Source: Selenomonas sp.
Lineage (GTDB): Bacteria; Bacillota; Negativicutes; Selenomonadales; Selenomonadaceae
Reading direction: 5' to 3'
Length of the DNA stretch: 64,000 nucleotides
Assembly (NCBI GenBank): GCA_022482925.1
Contig: JAKVOG010000007.1
Span: 85,077 to 149,076, forward strand
This document shows positions 28,750-37,125 of this stretch, piece by piece. Position 1 is the first letter of the stretch. The number at the start of each line of letters is the position of its first letter. Both the position numbers and the translations under genes were made by a program. The notes beneath the pieces were generated by a model. It saw only the letters and a list, made by a program, of their open reading frames with translations. It did not search any database and was not told the DNA's origin.

Positions 28750-29255
28750 CAAAAACCTTCAAAACCGTTTACCTGGCGCTGCTGATTGCCCAGTCACTGG
28801 CGCTGTTCCTCTTCGAAGGAATGCTTCCTCTGCCTTTTCTGGCACCGGGAGCCAAACTGGGGCTCGCAAACCTGATTACCCTGCTGGCCCTCTACACACT
28901 CCCCCGTTGGCAGGATGCCCTGCTGGTCATCCTGGTCCGCATCGCACTTGCTACAATGTTCGGTGGCGGTCCAACCATCCTGATGTACAGCCTGGCCGGC
29001 GGACTGCTGAGCTTTGCCGTTATGCTGATGCTGCGACACAGTGGACGCTTCTCCATTCTCGGAGTCAGCGCTGCCGGCGGCTTTGCCCACAACCTTGGTC
29101 AGCTCCTGATTGCCAGCCTCGTGATTGGCAATCCTGACCTGCTGCTCTATCTGCCCATCCTTGGCCCCTGCGGCATCCTCACCGGACTGCTGCTCGGCAC
29201 CTGCGCCGGACTGGTACTGAAAAAACTTCCCCCGGATTATTTCCCCAGAGTTTAA
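28746..29255 (+). CDS. Gx transporter / heptaprenyl diphosphate synthase component I family membrane protein
   Basis: 169 aa with five or so hydrophobic helices and Gly-rich segments (FLAPGAKLGLANLITLLALY, ATMFGGGPTILMYSLAGGLL). It matches the Hpre_diP_synt_I/Gx transporter family by pattern. The old name comes from HepS1 annotation; a transport role is more likely for this membrane form. It overlaps the NusG_II gene by 4 bp and ends in a strong terminator shared with the converging ompM1. Confidence 0.82.
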   Translation: MTKTFKTVYLALLIAQSLALFLFEGMLPLPFLAPGAKLGLANLITLLALYTLPRWQDALLVILVRIALATMFGGGPTILMYSLAGGLLSFAVMLMLRHSGRFSILGVSAAGGFAHNLGQLLIASLVIGNPDLLLYLPILGPCGILTGLLLGTCAGLVLKKLPPDYFPRV

Positions 29256-29256
29256 A

Positions 29257-29286
29257 AAAAGACCTCCGCATTTGCGGAGGTCTTTT
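29257..29286. terminator. Bidirectional terminator between Gx transporter gene and ompM1
   Basis: AAAAGACCTCCGCA / TGCGGAGGTCTTTT perfect 14-bp stem with A- and T-runs on both sides. Confidence 0.9.
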
Positions 29287-29315
29287 GTAGTCTTATTCTG
29301 TTTCCGATGGTTAAA

Positions 29316-30573
29316 TCAGAAGAAGAAGTTGACACGACCGAAGATGTTGGATACCTTGTTGTCAGTAGCCAGATCCTTGCCGTTGCCATAACGAACCTGA
29401 GCAACAACGTTCTTGAACGGAGCGTAGTTAGCACCGATCTCCCAAGCCTTCTGGCCTTCCTTTACAACATCGAACGTGTTGAAGAAGTCAGCGTTCTGGC
29501 CGAGGTGACGGTAAGCAACCCACGCACCCCAGGTGCCCTTGTTCTCAGCCTGTGCGCCCTTGTAGGAAACCTGAGCGCTGCCAGCCTTCTCATAAGCTGT
29601 CAGCATCATGGTTCTCAGCATAGAAGCCATTCATAGCAACATTCTTGCTGAACGTGTAAGCGCCCTTCAGGAGCCAGATGTTAGCTTCATCCGTCGTGCC
29701 ATTCTTGTAAGTCGTGGCATCACCATAGCTCTTAACATCCATGCTGTTCAGATGATGGTAGTCAGCACCAACAGACAGCTTGCCGAACGTGTGAGCCAGG
29801 CCAGCATACTGATAGTTAGCTACATCTGCAGCATCCGTATTAGCATTGTTCAAACGGCCAGCACCCAGCGTCAGCTTCGTAGCGCTGCCGAAGGAAGCCT
29901 CAGCACCGGAGAACGTCGTATCGAAGATGCTGTCATCATCGATCTGTGCAAACTTACCGAACTTCAGCTGGAAGTTCTTGTAGTCGCCCTGTGCCCATAC
30001 ACGCTTAAGCTGAACATTGCTGGTTTCATCTTTATTGCCGCCCTTATCTCCAGCAAGATCGGAGTTTGCATCGAGACGAGCCTTTACATGCCAGTTGCTG
30101 TTTACTTCAGCAGACGGCTCGAGACGGAACAGTACGTTGTTCGTATGTACATCTTTGGCATCGGACTGTTTTTCCATGCGATTGCGGGCAATCGTGTACT
30201 CGGCAGTGCCGTTCCATTTAACCATGTCAGCGTTGCGCTCCAGATTGGCTACGCGAACACCCAGGTTGTTCAGCTCATCAGCGAACTCAGCAGCGAGTTT
30301 GTCGATGAGAGCTTTGTCGTTGCCGCCGACATTGGTCTTAGCCATAGCCTTAGCAACCATCTGTGCCATCTCATAACGGGTGATGTTCTTGTCGCCCTTG
30401 AAGGTCGTGTCGCCATAACCATCGATAACGCCATCAGCAGCCAGCTGCGTTACAGCGTCATAAGCCCAATGGTCAGCCGGAACATCGGAGAACGGGTTTG
30501 CAGCAGCGAAAGTCGTGCTGGCAGCGCCAACAACCAGAGCGGCCGTCAGAGCAGATACGAGAGTCTTTTTCAT
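29316..30573 (-). pseudogene. OmpM-type SLH porin 1, frameshifted
   Basis: Negativicutes major porin, about 418 aa when corrected. Signal peptide (MKKTLVSALTAALVVGAAS..., cleavage near TFA-AAN). SLH domain about 25-80 (NPFSDVPADHWAYDAV, GVIDGYGDTTFKGDKNITRY), which in this phylum tethers the outer membrane to polyamine-modified peptidoglycan. A coiled coil about 90-120, then a beta-barrel ending in GRVNFFF with the terminal Phe expected for outer-membrane insertion. An extra A near 29600 breaks the barrel frame (NHDAD followed by SL-stop instead of AYEKAGSAQ); the other frame finishes the gene at 29316. Probably a sequence error. RBS AAGGAGGAG. Confidence 0.9.
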
Positions 30574-30628
30574 GAAGAACTCCTCCTTAATAAAACGATA
30601 AATTAACTTTTCGTCCGGAGAATCAACT

Positions 30629-30671
30629 AAAAGTTCCTCATGAGTGTCCATGTTTCCTCAGTCTCACTTCT
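30629..30671 (-). promoter_or_regulatory. Conserved leader stem-loop of ompM1
   Basis: On the minus strand: outer stem AGAAGT/ACTTTT, small internal loop, inner stem TGAG/CTCA and the 12-nt loop GAAACATGGACA. The same layout occurs before the other four ompM genes. It sits about 25 nt after the predicted transcription start. Confidence 0.65.
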
Positions 30672-30694
30672 AATCCCTTCTCAAGACAAGGTTA

Positions 30695-30723
30695 ATGCTA
30701 TCATAAAAAAATCGAAAAATCAA
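30695..30723 (-). promoter_or_regulatory. Promoter of ompM1
   Basis: Minus strand TTGATT (30723-30718), 17-bp spacer, TAGCAT (30700-30695). Confidence 0.55.
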
Positions 30724-30777
30724 GCCGTTACTGATAGCATTTATCAAATAACCCATTAAAGTTTGATTAAGGCAACA

Positions 30778-30807
30778 AAAGTCCCCTCACTTTCGTGAGG
30801 AGACTTT
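30778..30807 (-). terminator. Terminator of ompM2
   Basis: AAAGTC-CCTCAC / GTGAGG-GACTTT stem with one mismatch and a following TTTTGTTG on the minus strand. Confidence 0.8.
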
Positions 30808-30832
30808 AATGTTCTTATTCGTATTCAGGAGA

Positions 30833-32188
30833 TCAGAACAGGAAGTTTACGCGGCCAAAGAGATTCTTGACGTTCTTGTCGGTAGCAAGGTCCTTGCCAT
30901 CGCCGTAGCGCAGCGTAAGAATCGTGTTCTTGAACATTGCATAGTTGCCGCCGATTTCCCAGCCTTTTTCACCATGGTTGTCGATATTGATGACATCCCA
31001 TGGGCTGGCAACAAATGCATTGCGGCCAAAGTGACGATAGGCAACCCACAGGCCATAGGAACCCTGGTTCTCAGCCTGTGCACCTTTATAATCGAGCTCT
31101 GCGCTGCCGGCTTTGTTGTAGTAGTCAGCATCGTGGTTCTGTGCATAGAAGCCCTTGAATGCTACATTCTTAGTGAACGTATAGCCGCCCTTGAGCAGCC
31201 AGATGTTAGCTTCATCCGTCTTGCTGTCGGAGTAAGAATTCTTGGTGGTCGTATTATTGAACCCATTCGCATTCAGATGATGCCAGCGGGCTGCGCCCCA
31301 GATCTTGCTCTTCTGGAAACCAGCGCCGATATACTGATAGTTGGCCGTAGCATCATTTTCAGTAGTCCCACTAGCAGTAGTTGTCGTATCACTAGAATTA
31401 TTCGCATAGGAACCATCCGATTTCAGCGTAGACTCATGCATCAATGCAGCCGGGCTATTAACACGACCAGCACCAACAACAAAGTTCAGTCCGCTTGCAG
31501 GATTGTAGCTGGCCTCGGCACCAGAGAACGGCGTATCGGTGATGGTATCATCATCCGGCGCACCGAATTTACCAACTTTATAGTTCCAGGCACCATAGGC
31601 ACCCTCAGCCCATACACGTTTCAGAGCAACGTTGCCGCTGTCTTCAGCATTCTTGCTGCTGTCTTCATCAAGGAACGTATTGGCATCAAGACGAGCTCTT
31701 ACATGCCAGTGATTGTTGATCTCCGCATTCGGCTGCAGACGGATCAACAGGTTGTTGCGGCTGTCCTTGGAATCAACGGCATTGCCTTCCGTCATGTAGT
31801 GCTGGAAGGTGTACTCAGCCGTGCCATGCCAGGCAACCTTATCCGCATTGCGCTCCAGGTTGGAAACACGAACGCCCAGGTTGTTCAGTTCATCAGCGAA
31901 CTCAGCAGCGAGTTTGTCGATGAGTGCTTTGTCGTTGCCACCGACGTTCGTCTTAGCCATAGCCTTGGCGACCATCTGTGCCATCTCATAACGCGTGATG
32001 TTCTTGTCACCCTTGAAGGACGTATCCCCATAGCCTTCAATGACACCATCATTAGCCAGCTGCGTTACCGCATCATAGGCCCAATGATCAGCCGGAACAT
32101 CGCTGAACGGATTTGCAGCAGCAAACGTCGTGGAAGCAGCGCCTACCACCAGTGCAGCCGTCAGTGCAGATACAAGAGTCTTTTTCAT
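30833..32188 (-). CDS. OmpM-type SLH porin 2
   Basis: 451 aa, the longest of the five. Signal peptide and SLH segment are nearly identical to its neighbours (GVIEGYGDTSFKGDKNITRY), followed by the coiled coil (ALIDKLAAEFADELNNLGVR). The barrel is distinctive: a Thr/Ser-rich insertion (SSDTTTTASGTTEND) about two-thirds along, probably a surface loop, and an end of FGRVNFLF. The frame opens 42 codons upstream, but those codons cover the leader element, so the ATG at 32188 is chosen; its RBS (GGGGGAT) is weaker than those of the others. Outer-membrane diffusion channel and wall tether. Confidence 0.93.
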   Translation of the reverse strand: MKKTLVSALTAALVVGAASTTFAAANPFSDVPADHWAYDAVTQLANDGVIEGYGDTSFKGDKNITRYEMAQMVAKAMAKTNVGGNDKALIDKLAAEFADELNNLGVRVSNLERNADKVAWHGTAEYTFQHYMTEGNAVDSKDSRNNLLIRLQPNAEINNHWHVRARLDANTFLDEDSSKNAEDSGNVALKRVWAEGAYGAWNYKVGKFGAPDDDTITDTPFSGAEASYNPASGLNFVVGAGRVNSPAALMHESTLKSDGSYANNSSDTTTTASGTTENDATANYQYIGAGFQKSKIWGAARWHHLNANGFNNTTTKNSYSDSKTDEANIWLLKGGYTFTKNVAFKGFYAQNHDADYYNKAGSAELDYKGAQAENQGSYGLWVAYRHFGRNAFVASPWDVINIDNHGEKGWEIGGNYAMFKNTILTLRYGDGKDLATDKNVKNLFGRVNFLF

Positions 32189-32226
32189 AGTCTTTATCCC
32201 CCTATAAATAAAAGTATGAACTCTAC

Positions 32227-32312
32227 GTTCAGCTGACAAGTTACACAAGGAATCAATTCCACACGAGTTACCTTGTTTCCTCGGCAGATTCTCATGCTCC
32301 CCTCTGCTGAAC
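32227..32312 (-). promoter_or_regulatory. Conserved leader stem-loop of ompM2
   Basis: Core inner stem is CGAG/CTCG (32264-32283), a paired change from TGAG/CTCA of ompM1, 3 and 4, around the loop GAAACAAGGTAA. Further out, GAATC/GATTC pair. GTTCAGC at the predicted 5' end of the transcript pairs with GCTGAAC, 7 bp, closing the leader. Confidence 0.65.
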
Positions 32313-32319
32313 AATTCTT

Positions 32320-32348
32320 ATCATACCATAAGTTCCGGCAATTGACAA
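32320..32348 (-). promoter_or_regulatory. Promoter of ompM2
   Basis: Minus strand TTGTCA (32348-32343), 17-bp spacer, TATGAT (32325-32320). Transcription would start near 32312. Confidence 0.65.
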
Positions 32349-32409
32349 CGGTTCCACATAATTTTTTCTCGATTTTTCCTGTTTTTTCCAGTTTCATGCA
32401 CAAATATAA

Positions 32410-32445
32410 GGCTGCCCCGATGAAAATCAATTCATCGGGGCAGCC
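32410..32445 (-). terminator. Terminator of ompM3
   Basis: GGCTGCCCCGATGA / TCATCGGGGCAGCC 14-bp stem, followed by TTATATTTG on the minus strand. Confidence 0.85.
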
Positions 32446-32478
32446 CATTTATGAAAATTTAGTTACTTGCCAATTGGA

Positions 32479-33768
32479 TCAGAACTGGAACTCTACCCGG
32501 CCAAAGAGCTTCGAAGCATCTTTACCATTGTCGAGTTTTTCACCGTTGAAATACTTCAGGCTGGCAATCGTGTTCTTGGCTACCGTATAGTTCGTGCCAA
32601 TCTCCCAGCCTTTCGTACCAGCCCATGCACCATCATAAGACGGATCGAAGGCTACGTTCTGGCCAAGATGACGATATGCCGTGTAGACACCCCAGGAACC
32701 GCGGTTAGCAGCCTGTGCACCCTTATAGTCCAGCTCTACCGTACCAGCCTTCTTATAGTTGTCGGCTTTGGCATTCTCAGCATATTTGCCCTTCAGCGTT
32801 ACATTATTGTCGAAGCTGTAGCCGAGGTTTGCACTCCAGATATCCGCATCATCGCTGGCATTACCGTTGCGATAGTTCGAGATCGTCTGCAGATTACCGA
32901 TGGCATCGCTGTTGAGATGATGGTATGCAGCACCAACACTCAGCTTATTCTTACCATACTGCAGGCCTACACTCTGCATGTTGGCTGCATCATCAGCGGT
33001 CGTCTTATTGATGCTCTCATTGTTCGTATCGCCGTTCATATCCCAGCGGCCAGCCTGCAGCGTAAGCTTCAGGTCTTTACCAGTGGTAATGGATGCACCC
33101 GAGATCTCATCATCGAAGAGCAGGTCGCTATCGATCTGCATCGGGAGCTTACCAAGTTTGATGTTGGTATTGCCATACTGGCCATCGGCCCAGATGCGCT
33201 TCAGAGAAACATTGCTGTCTTCACTCGTAGTTGAGTCAGTGCCGTCCTTCGACATGTTCGTCGAAGCATCCAGGCGGGCATTCACATGCCAGTTGTTGTT
33301 GACTTCAGCGCTCGGCTCGAGACGGAACAGCAGCTCATCGTCGTTCTTCTTTTCCTTCGTTGCACTCTCGTCACGTTTGCTCGTATACGTATAACGAGCC
33401 TCGCCGTTCCATTTTACCTGATCCGCATTGCGCTCGAGGTTGGATACGCGGACACCCAGTGTATTCAGTTCATCAGCGAACTCAGCTGACAGTTTGTCGA
33501 TGAGGGCCTTATCTGTGCCGCTGACATTCGTCTTGGCCATAGCCTTAGCAACCATCTGTGCCATCTCATAACGCGTGATGTTCTTGTCACCCTTGAAGGT
33601 GCTGTCGCCATAACCATCGATAACGCCATCAGCAGCCAGCTGAGATACTGCATCATAAGCCCAATGATCAGAAGGAACATCGCTGAACGGGTTGGTAGCA
33701 GCGAACGTAGTGGAAGCAGCACCTACAACCAGTGCCGTCGTCAATGCAGATACAATAGTCTTTTTCAT
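32479..33768 (-). CDS. OmpM-type SLH porin 3
   Basis: 429 aa. N-terminus MKKTIVSALTTALVV is slightly divergent (IV and TT instead of LV and TA). The SLH domain contains NPFSDVPSDHWAYDAV and GVIDGYGDSTFKGDKN. The barrel (about 120-429) includes LGKLPMQIDSDLLFDDE and ends in FGRVEFQF, whose last residue is again Phe. GAGGAG lies 6 nt before the ATG. It has its own promoter and terminator, so it can be expressed independently of the neighbouring copies. Confidence 0.93.
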   Translation of the reverse strand: MKKTIVSALTTALVVGAASTTFAATNPFSDVPSDHWAYDAVSQLAADGVIDGYGDSTFKGDKNITRYEMAQMVAKAMAKTNVSGTDKALIDKLSAEFADELNTLGVRVSNLERNADQVKWNGEARYTYTSKRDESATKEKKNDDELLFRLEPSAEVNNNWHVNARLDASTNMSKDGTDSTTSEDSNVSLKRIWADGQYGNTNIKLGKLPMQIDSDLLFDDEISGASITTGKDLKLTLQAGRWDMNGDTNNESINKTTADDAANMQSVGLQYGKNKLSVGAAYHHLNSDAIGNLQTISNYRNGNASDDADIWSANLGYSFDNNVTLKGKYAENAKADNYKKAGTVELDYKGAQAANRGSWGVYTAYRHLGQNVAFDPSYDGAWAGTKGWEIGTNYTVAKNTIASLKYFNGEKLDNGKDASKLFGRVEFQF

Positions 33769-33835
33769 GATAATCTCCTCCATTTCGTATGGTACGAAAT
33801 AAAAAATAAAACATATTACTGTTCCGTCGAACTTC

Positions 33836-33886
33836 ACCGGTGGAGATTCATGAGTTGCCTTGTTTCCTCAGTGCCTCACTGCCGGT
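33836..33886 (-). promoter_or_regulatory. Conserved leader stem-loop of ompM3
   Basis: Inner stem TGAG/CTCA (33851-33870) with loop GAAACAAGGCAA. Outer stem ACCGG/CCGGT, different in sequence from the outer stems of the other copies but again paired. Confidence 0.65.
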
Positions 33887-33910
33887 CCCTCGCTCCCTTG
33901 GAACATCTTC

Positions 33911-33939
33911 ATTGTATTACTTGACCTAATCAATTACAA
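33911..33939 (-). promoter_or_regulatory. Promoter of ompM3
   Basis: Minus strand TTGTAA (33939-33934), 17-bp spacer, TACAAT (33916-33911). Confidence 0.6.
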
Positions 33940-34008
33940 TAAAAGGAGCATTATTCTTACGTTAAGTTTTGATTAAATACTTTTCTAAGTCAACTATAAT
34001 AAAATAAA

Positions 34009-34035
34009 GGAACCCCCGTATGATACGGGGGTTCC
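34009..34035 (-). terminator. Terminator of ompM4
   Basis: GGAACCCCCGTA - TGA - TACGGGGGTTCC perfect 12-bp stem with TTTATTTTATT after it on the minus strand. Confidence 0.9.
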
Positions 34036-34070
34036 CAGTAAAATTCGTACGATATACGATTAGTTGTGGA

Positions 34071-35351
34071 TTAGAAGAAGAACTCAACGCGACCGAAGAT
34101 CTTCGACGCATCTTTGTCGTTAGCCAGCTGTTTTCCCTTGAAATAGATCGCTTTCGCCTGTACATTCTTGAACAGCGTGTACTGCGTGCCGATCTCCCAG
34201 CCCTTGGTATTATTCTGAACACCATCCGTGTTCGGATCGATGGATGCATACTTACCGATATGACGATAAGCAACATAAGCGCCCCAGGAACCTACATTCG
34301 CTTTGCTTGCGCCCTTATAGTCCAACTGAACCATGCCGGATTTGTTATAGGCATCGGCCTTGTTGTTATCAATATAAGCGCCGCCAAGTGCTACATTCTT
34401 GCTGAAACGATAGTTACCAGCTACTTCCCATGCTCCAAACGTATCTTCCGCTGCATTCTTGCTATAATCTGCCGTAGTCTTAAAATTAGCAGTGTTCATA
34501 TGATAATATGCTGCCGTACCGGTAGCTTTGCCAAGATTATAGGTCAAAGCAAGACTCTGCAGATTAGCTGCGTCATCATCACCGTTTGCCGCAATACCCA
34601 GGCCGGTATCTTTTGTAATATCAATACGGCCAGCCATCACCGTTGCCTGCAGCTTATTACCAAAGGTCACGGCTGCACCGGACATCTGATCGTTGAGCAT
34701 GAGTGCCTTATCATAGTTCGTTACATCCGGGAATTTACCGAGCTGAACGCTGAAGTTCTTATAATCGCCCTGCGCCCAGATACGCTGCAACTTCACCTGA
34801 TCCGAATCGTCAAAACCAGTATCCTTTGCCATGTTCGTGCCAGCATCCAGACGAGCTTTTACATGCCAGTTGCTGTTGACCTCAGCTGTTGGCTCAAGAC
34901 GGAGCAGCATCTCATCTTTATTCGTCTTAGCCGTCTTTCCAGTCGTATCTTCGAGGCGTCCGCTGGTATACGTGTAACGAGCCTCGCCGTTCCATTTCAC
35001 CATATCAGCATTGCGCTCAAGGTTGGATACACGGACACCCAGATTGTTCAGCTCATCAGCAAACTCAGCAGCGAGTTTGTCGATCAGGGCTTTATCGTTG
35101 CCGCCGACATTGGTCTTAGCCATAGCCTTAGCAACCATCTGTGCCATCTCATAACGCGTGATGTTCTTGTCGCCCTTGAAGGTCGTGTCGCCATAGCCCT
35201 CGATGACACCATCAGCAGCCAGCTGGCTGACTGCATCATATGCCCAATGGTCAGACGGAACATCAGAGAACGGATTTGCTGCTGCAAACGTCGTGCTGGC
35301 AGCGCCAACAACCAGTGCAGCCGTCAGAGCAGATACAAGAGTCTTTTTCAT
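34071..35351 (-). CDS. OmpM-type SLH porin 4
   Basis: 426 aa. Signal peptide and SLH part (NPFSDVPSDHWAYDAV, GVIEGYGDTTFKGDKN) are followed by a coiled coil and a barrel with VQLGKFPDVTNYDKALMLND and a C-terminus FGRVEFFF. The barrel resembles porins 3 and 5 more than porin 2 (shared AYRHLG/AYRHIG, KGWEIGT and GKxLxxxKDAS features). AAGGAGGAG precedes the ATG. Confidence 0.94.
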   Translation of the reverse strand: MKKTLVSALTAALVVGAASTTFAAANPFSDVPSDHWAYDAVSQLAADGVIEGYGDTTFKGDKNITRYEMAQMVAKAMAKTNVGGNDKALIDKLAAEFADELNNLGVRVSNLERNADMVKWNGEARYTYTSGRLEDTTGKTAKTNKDEMLLRLEPTAEVNSNWHVKARLDAGTNMAKDTGFDDSDQVKLQRIWAQGDYKNFSVQLGKFPDVTNYDKALMLNDQMSGAAVTFGNKLQATVMAGRIDITKDTGLGIAANGDDDAANLQSLALTYNLGKATGTAAYYHMNTANFKTTADYSKNAAEDTFGAWEVAGNYRFSKNVALGGAYIDNNKADAYNKSGMVQLDYKGASKANVGSWGAYVAYRHIGKYASIDPNTDGVQNNTKGWEIGTQYTLFKNVQAKAIYFKGKQLANDKDASKIFGRVEFFF

Positions 35352-35407
35352 GATAAACTCCTCCTTAAAAAATAAAACCTGTTATTTTCTCGGAGGTACT
35401 ATAATAT

Positions 35408-35446
35408 GGATTCCTCATGAGTGGCCATGTTTCCTCAGTCTCATCC
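35408..35446 (-). promoter_or_regulatory. Conserved leader stem-loop of ompM4
   Basis: Inner stem TGAG/CTCA (35418-35437), loop GAAACATGGCCA, outer stem GGAT/ATCC. The internal-loop strands (GAGAC and TGAGGA) are identical to those of ompM1 while the outer stems differ and both pair. Confidence 0.65.
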
Positions 35447-35471
35447 CTATCAAGTCCCCTCGATTGCCTCC

Positions 35472-35500
35472 ATCTTAACACGTTTATTTGACGCTCGCAA
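35472..35500 (-). promoter_or_regulatory. Promoter of ompM4
   Basis: Minus strand TTGCGA (35500-35495), 17-bp spacer, TAAGAT (35477-35472), the same -10 as the cstA promoter. Confidence 0.6.
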
Positions 35501-35659
35501 GCATATTTTAACACTTTCATAAAAGTATTTTTAGTTATATCTAATATATGTAAAGTGTCTGAAAGCTTATATTCATGCGGTATTAACCGGTTACATCAAT
35601 ATTCTTTAAAATTATTTCCTTCTATTATATCCTATTGTTAAAATTCGGTTAAATAAAAA

Positions 35660-35685
35660 GAGCCTCCTCAAAATTGAGAAGGCTC
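35660..35685 (-). terminator. Terminator of ompM5
   Basis: GAGCCT-CTCA / TGAG-AGGCTC stem with one mismatch and TTTTTATTT following on the minus strand. Confidence 0.8.
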
Positions 35686-35723
35686 CCCATATGCTTGTTA
35701 TCTGATTTTCGATCCAGATTCAA

Positions 35724-37007
35724 TCAGAAGAAGAAGCTTACACGAGCATAAAGCGTCTCAGCATCTTTGTCCGTAGCCAGATCCTTACCAGTGAAATAGC
35801 CAAGAGTAGTCAATACATTCGTATAAGGAATGTAGCTGGCACCAAAATCCCAGCCTTTTTCGTTGTTTGCACTGCGAATCGTATCATAGGTCGGCATCAA
35901 AGATACATTGGATCCAAGATGACGATAGGCAACAAATGCTCCCCAGGATCCCTTGTTGGCTTTATTTGCGTCCTTATAGTCTACTTCTACGTTGCCAGAC
36001 TTCTTATAGGCATCTGCTTTGGTATTTTCTGCATAGGCTCCAGCCAAAGCAACATTTTTGCTAAACGAATATCTGCCGCCAACAGACCAGATATTCGCGT
36101 CATCCGTCTTGCCATCATAACCAATAGCAGTCTTGAATACATCACTATTGAAGTGACGATATGCTGCTCCCATAGTCATCTTGCCAAGCGTATAGCCGAG
36201 ATCAATGCCCTGATAGTTAGCTGCGTCTCTTACTGCGCCTTTCGTAACAGTCTCGTTTCCATAGTCATTGATATTCCAACGACCAGCTTCCAATGCAGCC
36301 TTCAGTTTATTACCGAAAGTTACCTGTGCACCAGAGAAATAGTCATCCGTAACCATACCTTCATCTGCTGCAGAATAAAGATTCTGTCTGCCAAGCTTTA
36401 CTTCGAAGTTCTTATACTTGCCATCAGCATAGATATAAGTCAGCTTCATATTACCATCATCTCGGCTCGTATCCTTATCCTTCGAAAGCTCCGTCTTCCC
36501 TGTCAAACGAGCATTAACGTGCCAGTTATCATTAATCTCGGCAGTTGGAAAGATACGATACTGCAGAGAATCTACATTAGCTTTCTTTTTGCTGCCGTCA
36601 GCCTGCTCATCACGATAGCTCCAATAGCGATAACGAGCCTCGCCCGTCCACTTCACCTTATCGGCATTACGCTCGAGCTTTGCTACGCGAACGCCGAGAT
36701 TGTTGAGCTCATCCGCGAACTCAGCCGACAGTTTGTCGAGCAATGCTTTATCATTGCCACCAACATTGGTCTTAGCCATTGCTTTGGCAACCATCTGTGC
36801 CATCTCATAACGCGTGATGTTCTTATCGCCCTTGAAATTCGCATCGCCATAGCCTTCGATGACACCATCAGCAGCCAGCGTGGATACTGCATCATAAGCC
36901 CAATGGTCAGCCGGAACATCCGAGAACGGGTTTGCCGCTGCAAACGTCGTAGAAGCTGCACCAACAACAAGAGCTGCCGTCAGAGCAGATACAAGAGTCT
37001 TTTTCAT
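35724..37007 (-). CDS. OmpM-type SLH porin 5
   Basis: 427 aa. SLH part contains NPFSDVPADHWAYDAV and GVIEGYGDANFKGDKN. The coiled coil (ALLDKLSAEFADELNNLGVR) precedes a barrel with aromatic girdle strands (ARYRYWSYRDEQ) and an end of ARVSFFF. It is the most divergent barrel, lacking the FGRV ending of the other four. GGAGGGAG precedes the ATG at 37007. It is the first gene of the array in the direction of transcription, but separated from ompM4 by a terminator. Confidence 0.94.
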   Translation of the reverse strand: MKKTLVSALTAALVVGAASTTFAAANPFSDVPADHWAYDAVSTLAADGVIEGYGDANFKGDKNITRYEMAQMVAKAMAKTNVGGNDKALLDKLSAEFADELNNLGVRVAKLERNADKVKWTGEARYRYWSYRDEQADGSKKKANVDSLQYRIFPTAEINDNWHVNARLTGKTELSKDKDTSRDDGNMKLTYIYADGKYKNFEVKLGRQNLYSAADEGMVTDDYFSGAQVTFGNKLKAALEAGRWNINDYGNETVTKGAVRDAANYQGIDLGYTLGKMTMGAAYRHFNSDVFKTAIGYDGKTDDANIWSVGGRYSFSKNVALAGAYAENTKADAYKKSGNVEVDYKDANKANKGSWGAFVAYRHLGSNVSLMPTYDTIRSANNEKGWDFGASYIPYTNVLTTLGYFTGKDLATDKDAETLYARVSFFF

Positions 37008-37062
37008 AGTGGAATCTCCCTCCAAAAATAGAACAGTAATAGTTTACTATTCGCCTTCGGTA

Positions 37063-37102
37063 GACAAACGCAACGAGTTTCCATGTTTCCTCCGCTTCTG
37101 TC
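37063..37102 (-). promoter_or_regulatory. Conserved leader stem-loop of ompM5
   Basis: Inner stem GAG/CTC (37075-37092), loop GAAACATGGAAA, outer stem GACAGAAGC / GCGTTTGTC with one mismatch and one G-T pair. It has the longest outer stem of the five. Confidence 0.65.
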
Positions 37103-37125
37103 CATCCTTTACGAACATGTTTCTA

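Follow-up and report, generated by a model that had tools for sequence, protein, structure and literature searches.

The ompM locus and its leader hairpins

The stretch of DNA analysed here (the window) comprises 64,000 nucleotides (nt) of a Selenomonas sp. genome (GenBank assembly GCA_022482925.1, contig JAKVOG010000007.1, positions 85,077 to 149,076) and carries on its minus strand five ompM genes, whose leaders share the stem-loop element that is the subject of this study. OmpM is described as a porin and outer-membrane tether in diderm Firmicutes (Silale 2023). All five proteins match the SLH domain family PF00395 of Pfam, and porin families are matched above the cut-off by copies 4 and 5 only. 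Copy 1 (29590..30573) has an SLH domain. Copy 2 (30833..32188) encodes 451 amino acids (aa) with an SLH domain, copy 3 (32479..33768) encodes 429 aa with an SLH domain and a weak porin match, and copies 4 (34071..35351; 426 aa) and 5 (35724..37007; 427 aa) have both SLH and porin matches. The frame of copy 1 is broken in this assembly: over 29310-30573 it shifts near 29590 and the C-terminal porin part lies in another frame. Either an assembly error or phase variation may account for this, or copy 1 may be a pseudogene.

Immediately 5′ of each of the five hairpins, a promoter with a 17-nt spacer is predicted, and since these promoters are predictions, transcription of the element is likewise predicted. 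Terminator-like hairpins are seen by eye directly 3′ of each ompM gene (29254-29286, 30777-30811, 32405-32452, 34008-34041, and 35656-35692). With its own promoter, leader, and terminator-like hairpin, each paralogue therefore looks monocistronic.

The motif [TCG]GAG-GAAACA[AT]GGNNA-CTC[AG] is present on the minus strand in all five ompM leaders, as the initial annotation of this locus had proposed. The hairpin comprises three helices, namely the basal P1, then P2, and then an inner stem of 3-4 base pairs (bp) beneath a 12-nt loop. P1, the outermost helix, starts near the predicted transcription start and had been overlooked in that annotation; in copy 1 it is GUCUUGAGAA/UUCUCCGGAC. The copy 1 hairpin (30613..30687, limits from the fold) contains P1, P2, the inner stem TGAG/CTCA, and the loop at 30645-30656, and is matched at 30607-30693 with 47.8 bits by R1, a covariance model built from 11 sequences. 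The limits of the next three hairpins also come from the fold: copy 2 (32227..32312; inner stem CGAG/CTCG, loop 32268-32279), copy 3 (33820..33905; TGAG/CTCA, loop 33855-33866), and copy 4 (35390..35463; TGAG/CTCA, loop 35422-35433; R1 match 35384-35469). The copy 5 hairpin (37047..37118; GAG/CTC, loop 37078-37089) is defined by the R1 match and the fold. The inner stem had been said to change as a pair, and it does so between copies 1, 3, and 4 and copy 2; in copy 5, the two facing letters of the fourth inner position are both G, which leaves a 3-bp stem and then a bulge. The outer stems have the letters given for them and pair as proposed in the folds of copies 1, 3, 4, and 5; in the fold of copy 2, a pairing other than the proposed GAATC/GATTC is preferred.

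No Rfam family reaches its gathering threshold in the 64-kb window. Weak matches to mir-9424, mir-486, His_leader, rnk_pseudo, ylbH, BSnc120, and sR16 lie far below threshold, mostly on terminator-like hairpins, and were set aside as chance.

Recurrence, covariation, and gene context in Negativicutes

The 18-nt core pattern GAGGAAACANGGNNACTC gives 72 matches in 27 of 41 genomes (own genome included), against a single match for the reversed control pattern. Among 68 distinct core sites (70 rows minus two end fragments), 67 precede an open reading frame (ORF) with an OmpM N-terminus, that is, an SLH porin, one of these being largely masked and weakly scoring. At the remaining site (L104), the downstream ORF has a signal peptide and is predicted to resemble an outer-membrane protein; it carries neither an SLH domain nor a Pfam match above the cut-off. 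Model R2, obtained by widening R1 to 68 rows from relatives and the window (including several partial or repeated rows and, in one case, L040 read from the opposite strand), matches 216 of 300 Negativicutes genomes and 72 of 97 genera at an expect value (E) ≤0.01. A failure to recur upstream of ompM orthologues, which would have refuted the proposal, is therefore not seen. The other 84 genomes gave no R2 match; at least one unmatched genome (G030) holds the exact core, and the search filters therefore lose some carriers.

In the wider set, 53 R2 matches in 51 chosen loci were followed: 49 lie before SLH porins, 2 (L141 and L165) lie before SLH-less outer-membrane-like proteins, and contig ends truncate the remaining 2. 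When all 58 matches are followed in 14 genomes, picked for several matches each and for family spread, 51 precede SLH porins and 4 precede what appear by eye to be SLH-less outer-membrane proteins (L340, L374, L380, and L382); the other 3 comprise one masked ORF, one unclear case, and one terminator-like false match. Since the hairpin is also found before apparent SLH-less outer-membrane genes, the element follows outer-membrane proteins beyond OmpM. Several of the SLH-less products at these seven loci open with FSGDANIEY-like stretches. In family f25, a carrier protein matches the structure chains 8bys and 8bym (SLH domain-containing protein; E 2.8e-173 and 8.9e-162), which are presumably Veillonella OmpM.

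The structure is supported by folding as well as by covariation. In 63/67 leaders, the minimum free energy (MFE) fold of the element region leaves the 12-nt loop unpaired above the three core pairs that close it. The core forms in 64/67 real leaders, compared with a mean of 44% when the flanks are dinucleotide-shuffled and the core is kept. The constrained fold has a mean z of -2.84, and 33/67 leaders beat all 100 shuffles. Covariation had been proposed from the five window sites; it is modest on the 11 sequences of R1 alone and clear in larger alignments, where its absence would have refuted the proposal. Alignment A4 (68 rows) has 254 double-change cells against 75.7 in shuffles, with slid controls reaching at most 49, and alignment A5 (53 further class matches) has 303 against 95.9, with at most 88 when partners are slid by 1-3 columns, although both alignments were fitted to the model structure, which favours that structure. 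The inner stem also alters as a pair, from GAG/CTC to AAG/CTT. One carrier upstream of an SLH porin (L379; G130:C67:262481-262565) has the 13-nt loop GAAACTATGGATA, an insertion in the usual 12-nt loop. This leader element of porin genes is thus real and class-wide, and the computed evidence is strong both for its structure and for the loop type described below.

The Yfr2-type loop and previously described RNAs

Rfam family Cyano-1 (RF01701), which is taken here to be the cyanobacterial small RNA (sRNA) Yfr2, reaches its threshold at 21 sites, which together cover each of the 18 cyanobacterial loci searched, and at E ≤0.01 it matches 88 of 194 genomes of the cyanobacterial phylum. The loop GAAACANGGNNA is common to the ompM leader and Yfr2, with the same letters, the same 12-nt length, and the same place on the stem. 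Its conserved form GAAAC..GG..A is kept in 119 of 121 aligned Negativicutes rows, where the stems covary, and in 51 of 51 cyanobacterial RF01701 matches; the earlier view that conservation sits in the loop rather than in the stems is borne out. The closing pairs, in contrast, are unlike: among 105 distinct Negativicutes elements they are GAG/CTC in 102 and AAG/CTT in 3 (GAG/CUC or AAG/CUU in the RNA), whereas in the 51 cyanobacterial elements they are GTC/GAC in 31, GTG/CAC in 19, and ATC/GAT in 1. Because many Negativicutes rows were found by a core pattern in which both the loop and GAG/CTC are prescribed, the freer evidence comes from the class-wide and RF01701 rows.

Searches in both directions bear on the likeness. 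RF01701 gives two sub-threshold matches in the window search, the best being copy 5 (23.7 bits), and the alignment shows the identical 12-nt loop; sub-threshold matches are also recorded at the copy 2 and copy 3 hairpins. Over the whole 2.94-Mb genome, RF01701 gives six matches at E ≤10, and the four ranked 1, 2, 3, and 6 are ompM leaders. Conversely, R2 run over 80 of 120 pattern-found loci gives 16 matches at E ≤5, of which 15 are Yfr2 sites; the Yfr2-site matches fall in 13 of 54 cyanobacterial loci and in 0 of 26 other pattern sites. Several points weigh against the comparison. The E-values of the genome matches are weak (0.13 to 9.4), and matches at E ≤10 also occur in 10 of 14 control genomes, so that it is the location of the matches that carries the weight. 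The RF01701 gathering score of 41 bits is not reached in the window, its genome, or 20 class-wide loci, where the best score is 30.8, and only 1 of the 20 class-wide loci has a match at E ≤2. Over 14 whole cyanobacterial genomes, R2 gives 4 matches at E ≤5, one of them recognisably Yfr2, and it gives none in 6 other genomes. Moreover, the loop is A-rich, and the comparison with Yfr2 was made after the fact.

Yfr2 is described as having an unpaired 5′ motif and a 12-nt central loop on a long stem that a bulge interrupts at position -4 (Voss 2009). Both RNAs thus share a long helical stem interrupted near the loop and a variable 3-bp closing stem. Multiple copies per genome are a further likeness (Lambrecht 2019), and Synechocystis Yfr2b and Yfr2c each have a start site in common with a downstream gene (Voss 2009). 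On the other hand, the ompM element is a porin-gene leader in another phylum, whereas Yfr2 is a free sRNA of cyanobacteria. The window hairpins are followed by ompM start codons, unlike the free, terminator-ended Yfr2, and a T run follows within 63 nt of the loop at 92 of 99 cyanobacterial sites, compared with 21 of 68 sites here within 45 nt of the core. The conserved unpaired Yfr2 5′ motif (GTGAGGAG or TGTGAGG; UGUGAGG) occurs in 0 of 67 leaders. The idea that cyanobacterial Yfr2 copies are themselves SLH-porin leaders was rejected, with none of 59 first downstream ORFs matching the SLH profile; these ORFs (at least 60 aa, start within 400 nt) came from 99 cyanobacterial sites required to have the loop, three pairs, and the 5′ motif. 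Because the score stays below threshold and other Yfr2 features are lacking, the sequence comparison places the ompM leader as sharing a loop module with Yfr2 rather than as a member of RF01701. The modest reading of the shared loop is that it is the same recognition site, with either descent or convergence behind it.

Yfr2 is described as almost universal in cyanobacteria (Lambrecht 2019), and Cyano-1 is listed under 'Cyanobacteria, marine' (Weinberg 2010). Within the titles and abstract openings of the literature matches listed, Yfr2/Cyano-1 appears nowhere outside cyanobacteria, and no ompM leader RNA is described apart from the SLH motif. This riboswitch candidate is reported from Synergistaceae, Clostridia, and Negativicutes, with 80 examples, about 60% of which lie upstream of SLH genes (Stav 2019, PMC6429828). 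Its position upstream of SLH-domain genes in Negativicutes is shared by the ompM element; its reported occurrence in Synergistaceae and Clostridia is a difference. As compared by description, the SLH motif may be the same as, overlapping with, or distinct from the ompM element. The main text of another survey names gltD, ldh2, ilvD, and potE motifs in Negativicutes or Veillonella and mentions neither porin nor SLH (Brewer 2021). The initial statement that the element is not a known RNA holds only in part, in that its loop is the Yfr2/Cyano-1 loop and the published SLH motif may overlap with it.

The 3′ arm, the ribosome-binding site, and the meaning of the element

The 3′ arm of the hairpin is complementary to the Shine-Dalgarno (SD) region of its own gene. 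Beyond dinucleotide make-up, this complementarity has a z of -1.76 and is significant (p ≤0.05) in 37 of 67 leaders, compared with 1 of 67 for the 5′ arm; an earlier run with other shuffles gave 32/67 and 3/67, respectively. In a separate class-wide set, the 3′ arm has a z of -1.95 and is significant in 21/45 leaders, and the 5′ arm in 7/45. The own SD pairs better than the mean of other leaders' SDs in 47/67 leaders and in 37/45 class-wide, and the own-SD total is matched by 0 of 2000 permutations. When the 5′ arm is removed in silico, SD pairing rises in 52/67 and 38/45 leaders, its mean going from 0.65 to 0.78 and, class-wide, from 0.60 to 0.81. Examples are the arm CUUAGG opposite the SD CCUAAGGAG in L140, L154, and L170, and the arm CCUUCA opposite the SD UGAAGGAGG in L040. 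The SD-pairing segment and the hairpin strand overlap by at least 3 nt in 109 of 110 leaders, as expected from most of the arm being paired. The 3′ arm is both a hairpin strand and an SD complement, and therefore the two pairings would compete. Within the window, the complementarity is clearest for the SD regions of copy 3 (33769..33786; z -2.9) and copy 4 (35352..35369; z -2.1), the MFE fold of the latter pairing GGAGG with CCUCC of the 3′ arm. It is weak for copies 2 (32189..32206; z -1.0) and 5 (37008..37025; z -1.5, p 0.09), and the copy 1 SD region (30574..30591) is paired with the hairpin 3′ side in the full-leader MFE fold with a duplex z of only -0.5.

The element probably acts as an SD switch, for which the following mechanism with two alternative partners of the 3′ arm may be inferred. 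A long hairpin is predicted to start near the mRNA 5′ end. In the ON state, the 3′ arm would pair with the 5′ arm, so that the hairpin forms, the SD is free, and translation proceeds. In the OFF state, the released 3′ arm would pair with the SD and translation would fall. A putative factor, most likely an RNA-binding protein, would recognise the exposed loop and hold the hairpin ON, and could thereby set the output of the porin paralogues together. A candidate protein of this kind, common to both phyla, might read the loop in Negativicutes and cyanobacteria alike.

A number of findings speak against this switch or against the hairpin itself. The counts and the permutation result are not independent, because leaders share ancestry and relatedness inflates them. 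The SD complementarity is not significant in 30 to 35 of the 67 leaders, including window copies 1, 2, and 5, the class-wide 5′ arms are also somewhat SD-complementary, and at least two class-wide start codons (L169 and L174) look mis-called. As for the hairpin itself, the free energies of the five full window leaders are lower than those of shuffled sequences by a moderate margin only (z -0.98 to -2.37), and in the MFE folds of full leaders including the SD, pairing between the SD and the 3′ side displaces the loop hairpin in copy 1, whereas in copy 4 such pairing leaves the inner stem and loop in place. Since the copy 4 loop survives the SD-paired state, loop binding alone need not distinguish the two states. 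Which factor binds the loop, and in which direction regulation runs, is conjecture.

The rival explanations differ in what they make of the loop and of the SD complementarity. The hairpin might be a 5′-end stabiliser that shields abundant porin mRNAs from 5′-end-dependent decay, like the leader stem-loop of E. coli ompA, which is such a stabiliser. The loop would then be a protein or ribosome contact, and the SD complementarity a by-product of purine-rich 5′ arms. A hairpin near the 5′ end of the mRNA of an abundant outer-membrane protein is known for ompA and predicted for ompM, whose stem lies near the predicted start (median offset -3 nt in the 109 of 110 leaders for which a promoter was called; range -40 to +24 with a crude start caller). 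SD-like purine runs in the 5′ arm, which resemble the 5′ motif of Yfr2, are found in 52 of 69 leaders compared with 39.4 expected from shuffles. We know of no class-wide conserved loop or anti-SD arm in the ompA stabiliser. OmpM1 is described as the most abundant outer-membrane protein of V. parvula (Silale 2023). However, a stabiliser leaves unexplained both the own-SD complementarity beyond composition and the conservation of the loop across phyla, and this explanation is rather unlikely; the anti-SD analysis favours translational control over mere mRNA stability. A metabolite riboswitch, in which the SD would serve as expression platform and the loop together with the internal loops would form the aptamer, could agree with the competing SD pairing, which is riboswitch-like and significant in about half of the leaders. 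Most aptamers are more complex than a single hairpin with one conserved loop, and none of the 59 ORFs downstream of cyanobacterial sRNAs with the identical loop matches the SLH profile. The possible identity with the SLH motif (Stav 2019) is helped by the same gene class and by Negativicutes being among the reported hosts (PMC6429828), yet a riboswitch appears improbable on balance.

The remaining alternatives concern what binds the loop. Pairing of the loop with a trans-acting sRNA would fit the suggestion that cleaved Yfr2 may act via its first stem-loop motif (Lambrecht 2019). It is very improbable here: GAAACAWGG occurs 44 times on both strands of the genome compared with 43 for the reversed control, which is no excess, and no further sRNA search was made. 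CsrA, which would bind A-N-GGA in a hairpin loop, has a plausible site, as 97 of 105 distinct loops carry A at position 10 and 101 of 105 carry A at position 6, giving CANGGA, and the ANGGA of Yfr2 has been remarked on (Voss 2009). The window genome has two CsrA matches, like most of the searched genomes of its genus. However, CsrA is matched in 146 of the 216 element-bearing genomes and has no match in the other 70, which makes it an unlikely binder, and RsmA/RsmE homologues are reported as not identifiable in cyanobacteria (Voss 2009). The co-occurrence disfavours CsrA as the general binder, and its role at this loop is extremely doubtful. None of the 163 CsrA-matched genomes belongs to family f25.

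The explanation that best accommodates these observations, and that is held with somewhat better than even confidence, is a class-wide structured porin leader with the Yfr2 loop that likely controls translation by either exposing or masking the site where ribosomes bind. A broader and only tentative possibility is that a single ancient module of the outer-membrane bacteria within Terrabacteria underlies both the ompM leader and Yfr2. Its loop would be read by one conserved factor, and the module would serve as a cis porin switch in one phylum and as a trans sponge of the sRNA Yfr1 in the other. The Yfr1 motif contains CUCCUC, an SD-like complement. In cyanobacteria, the SD-like 5′ motif of Yfr2 would sponge the porin regulator Yfr1, and the ompM leader might have both RNAs built in, Yfr1 as its anti-SD arm and Yfr2 as its 5′ arm. 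This idea is inspired by the pairing of Yfr1 with Yfr2, the two motifs being nearly complementary, and by the first known targets of Yfr1, two porins in Prochlorococcus (Lambrecht 2019). Yfr1 is trans-acting, unlike the cis ompM leader, and ACTCCTCAC is found in 0 of 67 leaders.

In the literature passages and listings covered, nothing is stated on OmpM regulation, and the main text of Silale 2023 contains none of the words promoter, untranslated, leader, RNA, or operon. The class-wide leader element provides a direct handle on OmpM regulation. It also places the Yfr2 loop in a second phylum and in an mRNA leader, and with one loop present in two organisms, its binder could be identified by pull-downs.

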